Of a stretch of DNA of 34,049 nucleotides, positions 12,232 through 15,422 are shown piece after piece. Source of the stretch: Candidatus Synechococcus spongiarum SP3 (GTDB taxonomy: Bacteria; Cyanobacteriota; Cyanobacteriia; PCC-6307; Cyanobiaceae); the NCBI GenBank assembly GCA_001007665.1, contig JXQG01000018.1, positions 1 to 34,049 on the forward strand. Reading direction: 5' to 3'. Within the stretch, counting starts at the first letter, position 1, and each line of letters begins with the position of its first letter. The notes under the pieces are model-generated. The model was not told where the DNA came from. It was given only the letters and a program-made list of their open reading frames with translations, and did no database searches. The position numbers and the translations under genes are program-made.

Positions 12232-12249
12232 CCAGGCTTTCCCTAAGAG

Positions 12250-12490
12250 ACTGTTGAAAAAGACCTGTCCGACTCGTCAAATGAGTCCACTGCTCCAGGC
12301 AAGTTGAGAGGCCATTGCGGCAGATACGGTTGCTGGCCCACGAGGCGTTGCAGCGGCTGGACAGCACGTTTGAGGAATTTTATGCCGGTTCTGGCCGTCC
12401 GTCCCTTCCACCAGAACAGTTGCTGTTGGCGCTGCTGCTCCAAGCCATCTACGGCCTGCGTTCCGATATCCAGAACTGGGGTTTCCGTTT
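12250..12490 (+). mobile_element. Remnant of an IS5-type transposase (DUF772 N-terminal region)
   Basis: The frame from 12303 reads ERPLRQIRLLAHEALQRLDS (written here from the codons just before TTG 12315), then GRPSLPPEQLLLALLLQAIYGLRSD. This is the N-terminal DUF772 domain of IS5-family transposases, which read 'RPIR.ivdeaL..L...F..lY...GRPSiPPE.LLra.lLqalY.iRSe'. Upstream codons hit a stop in this frame, and after SDIQ the family pattern is lost, so more than 80% of the transposase, including the DDE core, is gone. The sequence gactgttgaaaaag at about 12249-12262 looks like an IS end, but its partner is not in the window. Confidence 0.72.
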
Positions 12491-12780
12491 GTGTGCTGCC
12501 TACCTCTCAGTTCCACCGCAACGTCTGGATAGCCTGAACAGCAGACCGCAGCAGGGTTTCCTCTTCCCTCTCTCCATCAGGTTTCCCCAAGCACCAACCA
12601 AGGCAGTGGGGACCTTCCCTGGGTTTACCTTGCCCGGAACTCGGGTTTAATAATACTCTCCAGGAACCCTCTGGGTTGGCCATCTGAAACAATGTAGCCA
12701 AAGTGCCAGGGATAAACTGCTGGCCAATACTAATTTTAAGACATTAAATCTTATTTTGCGAACAACTTCTTTGTTTTTCT
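12491..12780. other. Unassigned spacer between transposase remnant and MmeI-like remnant
   Basis: No gene is supported. Composition shifts here from GC-rich to strongly AT-rich at about 12700. The ORF on the minus strand at 12507-12701 has no recognisable family. Confidence 0.6.
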
Positions 12781-13290
12781 TTACTTTTTTAACTTTCTCG
12801 TATTTGTGATTAAAAAAGTAATAAAATAGACTGATATTTTGATTTTTTGATAACTCATGAAGAGAGAATCTTCTTTCTCTTGACCAATAACTAGCCTTAC
12901 CTTCCTTTCCTTTTTAAAGAAATACATCTCAAAATAATGAAAATCATTTACAAGAATATATTTGGGTTTAAGATAATCTTCAAGTTCTTGATAATAATTT
13001 CTAGCTTGTGCGAACGCTGCAGAAAGTTTTCAACCGGGGCTTTTATTTTCAATAAATATAACCCCAGGCCAGAAAACATCAATTCGGCTCTTGGAAGGTA
13101 GTTCATATTCAGGAAAGATATTGTAACCGTGATAGTCAATGCCAAAAATGCTAAAGAATTCATCCATGAAGTCTTCATGGTCTTTACTTTCTGTCAGTTC
13201 CTGTTTGCTACTCCACTTTTCTGCAAACTGTCTAACCTGTTGCTGAATTCTCCGCTTTTCATGAGCTCTTAACATAACGCTCCAATGCAC
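12781..13290 (-). pseudogene. MmeI-like type II restriction-modification enzyme, N-terminal nuclease domain remnant with in-frame TGA
   Basis: MmeI-family enzymes join a nuclease, an N6-adenine methyltransferase and a target-recognition domain. Only the N-terminal domain remains. Codons 1-86 (13290 to 13033) read RRIQQQVRQFAEKW, then DEFFSIFGID, then IDVFWPGVIFIENKSPG. Its D-x9-E-x-K spacing equals that of the MmeI catalytic site as I recall it (D70, E80, K82). Codon 87 is TGA (13030-13032). The same frame then continues for 82 codons as KLSAAFAQARNYYQ and YLKPKYILVNDFHYFEMY, again family-like, to TAA at 12781. TGA is one C-to-T change from CGA. Methyltransferase and recognition domains are absent. 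The AT-rich composition suggests transfer. The true start may be the ATG at 13275. Confidence 0.78.
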
Positions 13291-13296
13291 CAGATC

Positions 13297-14007
13297 TCAC
13301 TCCACAGGAACGGCCGCCTCGTCACAGAGAACCAAAACTTCCCCCTTCGGAGCCACCAGTTTGGCGGGGGTCCGCGCCGGATCTTCATCGGGATCCAGCA
13401 GCCGCTGCAAGGCTTGCCGCTTGGCGGCGCCGGCCACCAGGATGATCACGTGCTGCGCGGCACTGAGCAGGGGCGCCGTCATGGACACCCGGGGCAGACC
13501 CTTCCCCCACCCCACGGTGACCCATCGGTCCTTCACGTCCACGGCCACCGTGCCAGGGAAGAGGGATGCCGTGTGACCATCGTCCCCCAAGCCAAGGAGC
13601 ACCAGATCAAGCTGGGGTGGTGGGCTGGGGCAGAGGGTACTCAGAAGATCAGCATAGGCCTGGGCAGCGGCCTCGGGGCTGGGCAGGTGGGTGGGCACAG
13701 GGTGGAGGCGTGCCTGGTGGGCGCGGCTGCCGCTGAGGAGACAGCGGCGCACCATGCGGGCGTTGCTGGCGGGATCCTGGGCATCCACCCAGCGCTCATC
13801 CCCCAGCACCAGTTCCACCCTCTTCCAGGGCAGGTCCTCTTGCCCCAGGTGGGCATAGGCAGCCTCTGGTGTGCTCCCCCCTGCCAGGGCCACGACGCAG
13901 CGGGGCTTACGGATGGTGGTGGCACGGATGGCCGTGGCCATGGCAGCGGCAGCGGCTTGGGCCAGGGCTGCTTTGTCCGGGCTGCTTTGGAGGCGGTAGC
14001 GGCTCAT
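13297..14007 (-). CDS. pgl: 6-phosphogluconolactonase
   Basis: Hydrolyses 6-phosphogluconolactone, second step of the oxidative pentose phosphate pathway. The 236-aa protein has VVALAGGSTPEAAYAHL (near 38-54), VELVLGDERWVDAQDPASN (near 64-82) and LLGLGDDGHTASLFPG (near 137-152), the substrate and catalytic signatures of the SugAR/PGL family. I chose ATG 14007 because it overlaps the gnd stop as ATGA, a standard coupled junction; an ATG three codons earlier exists. It lies directly behind gnd, the next enzyme of the same pathway. Its 3' end borders the AT-rich MmeI-like remnant only 6 bp away. Confidence 0.95.
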   Translation of the reverse strand: MSRYRLQSSPDKAALAQAAAAAMATAIRATTIRKPRCVVALAGGSTPEAAYAHLGQEDLPWKRVELVLGDERWVDAQDPASNARMVRRCLLSGSRAHQARLHPVPTHLPSPEAAAQAYADLLSTLCPSPPPQLDLVLLGLGDDGHTASLFPGTVAVDVKDRWVTVGWGKGLPRVSMTAPLLSAAQHVIILVAGAAKRQALQRLLDPDEDPARTPAKLVAPKGEVLVLCDEAAVPVE

Positions 14008-15422
14008 GCCAGCCACTCCGTGTGGAAGCTCCCTTCCCGGTCCACCCGTTCATAGGTGTGGGACCCAAAGCAGTCCCGCATGGCCTGCACGGCGTTCTGG
14101 GGCAGCCGGGGTGAGCGGTAGCTGTCGATGTAGTGCAGCGCCGCCGAGAGGCACGGCAGGGGGATGCCCGCCCGGGCGCCCGCCTGTACAACGGTGCGCA
14201 GGTTGTCCAGCCGTGCATTGATCTGCCGTGCAAACCAGGGATCCATCATCAGGTTGGGCAGGTGATGGTTCTCGCGGAAGGCGTTCTGAATCCGGCTCAG
14301 CAGCTTGGCGCGGATGATGCAGCCCCCTTTCCAGACTCTTGCGATGCTGGTGAGATTCAGGTGGTAGTTGTGCCGCTCCGAGCCGCGTCGCAGCAGGGCA
14401 AGCCCCTGGGCGTAGCTGGTGATGATGCTGAGGATGACGGCATCCCGCAGAGGCGCCATGCCGCCCTCCACGCTGCCCAGCTCCACAGGGGTGGCGGAGG
14501 GGCCAGCCAGAACGCTGCTGGCCTTGACCCGCTCTGCCTTCAGGGAGCTCAGCACCCGTGCATTGACGGACTCATAGATGGTGGGTACGGCCACCCCCAT
14601 CTCCAGGGCGCTGATCACCGTCCAGATGCCTGTTCCCTTCTGGCCGGCCACGTCCAGGATTTTTTCCACCAGGTGGGCGCCGCTCTCCGGATCTTTGGTG
14701 CGCAGGCATACTTCCGTGATTTCCACCAGGTAGGAACTCAATTCCTCCAACTGATTCCAGGCGCTGATCACGTCAGCCATGGCCTGACCGTCAAGGGCGG
14801 CGCCACGCTTCATCAGGTCATAGGCCTCTGCCAGGATCTGCTCTACGCCATATTCAATGCCGTTGTGAACGGTCTTGACGAAGTGGCCGGCTCCACCGGG
14901 ACCCATGTAGGCCACACAGGGACCATCCTCCACCTGGGCGGCCATGGTTTCCACCAGGCTGGCGATGGACTGGTAGGCCTCCCTGGTGCCCCCGGGCATC
15001 ATACTGGGTCCCTCCAGGGCGCCCTTGGCCCCTCCGGAGATGCCCATCCCGATGTACCCGAAACTCCGGCTTTCCAGAGCCTGCACCCGTTGCTCCGTGT
15101 CCATGTAGAGGGAGTTGCCGCCATCAATGAGGAGGTCCCCTTCCTCCAGAAGGGGCGCCAGGGTGTCGATGGTGGCGTCAATGGGGGCACCCGCCTTGAT
15201 CATCATCAGAATGCGTCGGGGGCGTTCCAGTTGCTGGACAAATTCCGGCAGGGTGTAGGCCGCTTGAATGGCCTTCCCGGATCCGCGACCCGCCATGAAG
15301 GCGTCCGTCTTCTCGCGGGTGCGGTTGTAGACCACGCTACTGAAGCCGTTGCGCTCGGCGTTGAGGATCAGGTTTTCTCCCATGACGCCGAGGCCAACCA
15401 AGCCAAAGTGCGCTTTGCTCAT
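14004..15422 (-). CDS. gnd: 6-phosphogluconate dehydrogenase (decarboxylating)
   Basis: Oxidises 6-phosphogluconate to ribulose-5-phosphate and CO2, making NADPH. The 472-aa length is that of the long (dimeric) form. The N-terminal Rossmann fold has GLVGLGVMGENLILN (7-21) with the NADP-type YNRTREK following; ISGGAKGALEGPSMMPGG (about 128-145) and GHFVKTVHNGIEYG (about 180-193, catalytic Lys and substrate-binding residues) are intact, and the C-terminal all-helical domain ends with the family's RVDREGSFHTEW tail. It is followed by pgl with a 4-nt overlap. An 85-bp gap to glgC upstream could hold a promoter. Confidence 0.97.
   Translation of the reverse strand: MSKAHFGLVGLGVMGENLILNAERNGFSSVVYNRTREKTDAFMAGRGSGKAIQAAYTLPEFVQQLERPRRILMMIKAGAPIDATIDTLAPLLEEGDLLIDGGNSLYMDTEQRVQALESRSFGYIGMGISGGAKGALEGPSMMPGGTREAYQSIASLVETMAAQVEDGPCVAYMGPGGAGHFVKTVHNGIEYGVEQILAEAYDLMKRGAALDGQAMADVISAWNQLEELSSYLVEITEVCLRTKDPESGAHLVEKILDVAGQKGTGIWTVISALEMGVAVPTIYESVNARVLSSLKAERVKASSVLAGPSATPVELGSVEGGMAPLRDAVILSIITSYAQGLALLRRGSERHNYHLNLTSIARVWKGGCIIRAKLLSRIQNAFRENHHLPNLMMDPWFARQINARLDNLRTVVQAGARAGIPLPCLSAALHYIDSYRSPRLPQNAVQAMRDCFGSHTYERVDREGSFHTEWLA

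Follow-up and report, generated by a model that had tools for sequence, protein, structure and literature searches.

The window (the entire 34,049-nucleotide stretch analyzed here, from Candidatus Synechococcus spongiarum SP3) very probably contains a non-functional pseudogene of a stand-alone MmeI_N-type nuclease gene that is restricted to the genus. This reading is drawn from homology, from synteny, from three lesions in the gene, and from the intactness of seven neighboring genes. The features that bear on it are the following:

14004..15422, reverse strand: gnd, 6-phosphogluconate dehydrogenase (PF00393), synteny anchor
13297..14016, reverse strand: pgl, 6-phosphogluconolactonase (PF01182), intact, upstream of the pseudogene, synteny anchor
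12625..13275, reverse strand: probable pseudogene of a stand-alone MmeI_N-type nuclease with a C-terminal hydrophobic helix, from the ATG to the final TAA
13042..13080, reverse strand: D-x9-E-x-K catalytic site (D 13080-13078, E 13050-13048, K 13044-13042, from the translation)
13030..13032, reverse strand: lesion 1, in-frame TGA (translation and frame-aware alignment)
12870..12918, reverse strand: lesion 2, -1 frameshift near 12900, placeable within this interval
12700..12706, reverse strand: lesion 3, +1 frameshift near 12703, within the hydrophobic-helix segment (frame-aware and DNA alignment)
12641..12732, reverse strand: remains of the C-terminal hydrophobic helix with the SDGQPR tail, bounds estimated from the alignment; a locus-specific segment, single-copy in sister genomes
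12243..12650, no strand assigned: degraded transposase remnant (DUF772 match), downstream, multi-copy in the genome

Translation bears out two observations made in the preliminary description of this DNA: a reverse-strand frame from 13290 to 12781 retains the D-x9-E-x-K site, and a single TGA at 13032-13030 is followed by sequence of the same family, as comparison with MmeI_N (PF20464) also indicates. The two halves of this frame belong to one family (first half, E 1e-7; second half weak, E 0.09), and when they are joined with an X at the stop the match rises to E 3.8e-14. The similarity does continue beyond the TGA, as had been described, but the last ∼30 residues of that frame (LFMSYQKIKISVYFITF...) are out of frame: the reading frame changes near 12900, past which the other frame reads YWSRERRFSLHELSKNQNISLFYYFFNHKY instead. 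Including this change improves the MmeI_N match to E 4.5e-15, and PF20464 is above cut-off in the pieced sequence.

Frame-aware alignment with three intact proteins, those of the related genomes G004, G009, and G008, traces the gene between 13275 and about 12641, and the remnant aligns with them end to end, up to '...SDGQPRGFLESII'. A profile built from the intact orthologs matches 12640-13272 with E 3e-51, and the similarity is therefore not due to chance. The frame terminates at a TAA near 12625, further downstream than the 12781 end first described. Depending on the ortholog used, the frame-aware alignment places lesion 2 at 12903, 12900, or 12870, while the DNA alignment places it at ∼12918; the remnant of the helix and SDGQPR tail is present and is split by the +1 frameshift. 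With a TGA and two frameshifts, the window copy has no open reading frame. Its linker is shorter than those of G004 and G009, which is not counted as a lesion because the linkers in G003 and G008 are also short. The dN/dS of the window copy relative to G004 and G009 is 0.24–0.31, still low, and the decay is therefore either recent or hard to date. An origin of the TGA from a CGA codon, as had been suggested, finds no support, as relatives carry Lys or Glu at that position. The nuclease stretch is an AT-rich island (25–39% GC) within surroundings of 65–70% GC, and the inverted repeat downstream, at 12776-12826, is AT-rich low-complexity sequence. The DUF772 transposase remnant adjoins the pseudogene, and many related copies of it occur in the window genome (G000).

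It is improbable that the gene is intact and only appears broken through errors of sequencing or assembly. Lesions 2 and 3 each alter the length by a single base, in an AT-rich region, which would suit such errors; however, the three lesions fall within about 330 bases and one of them is a substitution-type stop. Furthermore, seven neighbors (uvrC, a murD-like gene, pgl, gnd, glgC, hemA, and glpX) are open throughout as single frames, which speaks against poor sequence quality.

A search of related genomes found that the nearest relatives of the window gene are short frames of the same genus, not 900-residue MmeI genes. In six of these genomes (G003, G004, G005, G006, G008, and G009), a stand-alone MmeI_N gene lies directly behind gnd-pgl. 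An intact ortholog in related strains, which the preliminary description had proposed to look for, is thus found at this site in five sisters, where it is complete at 211–248 aa (the G006 copy is cut by a contig end). In G001 another gene follows pgl and the nuclease gene is absent there, while G002 and G007, whose genomes are incomplete, stand outside this presence/absence tally. By name, the records of these loci come from Synechococcus sp. and Prochlorococcaceae MAGs as well as from Candidatus Synechococcus spongiarum SH4. In G009 and G005, the opposite strand encodes, past the intact nuclease gene, a protein predicted to be exported (LLAIAMSLTATVGAQEA...; L006:654-1193 (+) and L010:2298-2798 (-)).

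The orthologs share one layout, comprised of an MmeI_N-type PD-(D/E)XK domain of about 150 aa, a variable charged linker, one C-terminal hydrophobic helix, and an SDGQPR tail that is conserved at the C-terminal end. PF20464 is above cut-off in all five intact orthologs scanned, and the catalytic D, E, and K are invariant among the intact copies. Neither a fused gamma-class N6-adenine methyltransferase domain nor a target-recognition domain (TRD) with a C-terminal helical bundle was found in these five proteins, and the methyltransferase domain was likewise not found in the window remnant ending near 12625. Values of dN/dS among the intact copies are 0.09–0.39 (full-length and nuclease-only), with several pairs saturated at synonymous sites, such that the closer pairs weigh most; by this measure, the intact protein is kept by purifying selection.

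The tree groups the stand-alone copies in a single clade, with support, and separates them from the full-length MmeI genes of the genus. Across 386 cyanobacterial genomes searched with the ortholog profile, almost every other match fell in a long frame, mostly of 900 aa or more, and the shorter matches that were read were at contig edges, broken, or continuous with spacer and methyltransferase sequence; the sampled cyanobacteria otherwise yielded no member of the gnd-pgl clade. The helix/tail segment could in principle be a C-terminal cassette common to many proteins; in the ten genomes searched, it was found only at the gnd-pgl locus. A viral origin was considered and rejected: a pattern search of viral contigs returned no relative, and PHROGs returned nothing. 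PADLOC mostly matches Type IIG models in their N-terminal part, with weaker matches of the nuclease region to mad2, and no defense genes were seen among the immediate neighbors read.

Among known systems, MmeI itself (Type IIL; PDB 5hr4; PF20464) is one of the closest. The nuclease domain of the intact orthologs covers MmeI residues 7-159 (E 5e-24), and the D-x9-E-x-K site of the orthologs and of the window aligns with D70/E80/K82, the catalytic residues of MmeI (PMC4833311). However, MmeI is a protein of 919 aa with a helical spacer, a methyltransferase, a TRD, and a C-terminal bundle, while the gnd-pgl proteins lack all four and have a linker and one hydrophobic helix in their place. The full-length MmeI-type genes of the genus (e.g., G009:C4 and G004:C15) share the N-terminal nuclease domain and its Pfam family, but they are 920–1018 aa where complete, are located at other loci, and occupy a separate branch of the tree.

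These comparisons bear on whether the window copy could be what is left of a full-length MmeI-type (Type IIL/IIG) gene after loss of the methyltransferase and target-recognition parts, a reading that we regard as very improbable. Its nuclease domain is indeed MmeI_N, full MmeI-type genes exist in the genus, and in the window genome two MmeI-type genes are represented, on two other contigs, by methyltransferase, TRD, and C-terminal pieces that in each case begin at the edge of the contig. Nevertheless, the remnant aligns through the linker, the helix, and the SDGQPR tail with syntenic orthologs that have neither methyltransferase nor TRD, and it is far closer to its nearest short ortholog (54–55% identity) than to the N-termini of the full-length MmeI genes of the genus (about 32–36%). 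Truncation of an MmeI gene was rejected on the strength of these short orthologs at the syntenic site. It follows that the two parts described at the outset as gone were never present in the intact gene, and that a silenced nuclease half of a restriction-modification enzyme, also considered there, fails in the same way, as no methyltransferase half existed. The view that a dead gene is most likely stands on the three independent lesions, although the reason given for it, truncation, was wrong: relative to its orthologs the gene is essentially full length. A methyltransferase part elsewhere in the genome, which had been suggested as a target for searching, does occur as MmeI_Mtase, solely on the two other contigs, but it belongs to other genes of the full-length type. 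Both genes (C54:1-519 and C100:1-519; L002 and L003) start at position 83 of the MmeI_Mtase profile, which looks as though the assembly had been interrupted within an N-terminal part common to them. Other damaged MmeI-type genes also occur in the genus (G008:C38:53676-54043, L076 and L080; and L068, G004:C34): one is frame-broken in the nuclease domain, while in the other MmeI_N leads straight into a more distal region of the enzyme, as would result from a deletion of the spacer.

Expression of a functional protein by readthrough or recoding of the TGA has almost nothing to commend it beyond the family-like sequence that runs on in frame past this codon, and it was rejected since bypassing the TGA alone would not restore the protein across the two frameshifts downstream, the sister copies all lack a stop at this position, and five genes of the window (pgl, gnd, glgC, hemA, and glpX) terminate normally at TGA, which speaks against a changed meaning of the codon.

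A second short MmeI_N protein, of 242 aa, is encoded in G003 on contig 114 (L073:1477-2205 (+)). Like the gnd-pgl copies, it has MmeI_N and one C-terminal hydrophobic helix and no methyltransferase; unlike them, it has another locus and another tail. Its nuclease domain is 46–49% identical to the full-length MmeI proteins of the genus versus 33–39% to the gnd-pgl copies, and the tree leaves its position unresolved. The architecture of MmeI_N with a C-terminal helix has possibly arisen twice, with an independent origin for the L073 protein.

The structural model of the G004 protein has a confident mixed alpha/beta nuclease part (residues 1–120, pLDDT mostly 77–92) and a long helix of low confidence at residues 186–226 (pLDDT about 45–57); the C-terminal helix of the orthologs is predicted by hydropathy. 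When the predicted fold of the intact protein was compared against the PDB, no match reached significance (best E 0.027, low probability), and the assignment to the MmeI family therefore rests on sequence. From the hydrophobic helix and the basic residues on its nuclease side, we infer a membrane location for the intact protein, and these basic residues suggest that the nuclease would be cytosolic. A small literature search returned no papers on MmeI nuclease domains that carry transmembrane parts or on membrane-anchored nucleases and phage.

Cleavage by MmeI requires recognition and the pairing of two enzymes (PMC4833311), and a stand-alone copy must be directed otherwise. The intact protein may be anchored by its C-terminal helix to the inner side of the cytoplasmic membrane, with the nuclease in the cytosol, where it would cut DNA that is incoming or otherwise accessible; its location or a partner could stand in for the target-recognition and methylation parts of MmeI. 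We propose this mechanism tentatively. The window genome has very probably lost the gene through point decay. With similarly limited confidence, we consider it possible that sponge-associated Synechococcus relatives have a lineage-specific, membrane-tethered MmeI-type nuclease without cognate methyltransferase or TRD, which possibly arose twice, perhaps cuts phage or other DNA on entry, and was recently lost in the window lineage.

The window copy is a pseudogene of an ordinary kind; more interest attaches to the intact gene. Its architecture, an MmeI-type cleavage domain without methyltransferase or TRD on a predicted membrane anchor, is apparently undescribed, as far as a small literature search indicates, and selection maintains the gene at one and the same locus in sponge symbionts. 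The intact family appears to be a variant on the MmeI-type nuclease theme, with a putative function, and it raises the directly testable question of how a nuclease domain that in MmeI needs target recognition may act safely on its own.
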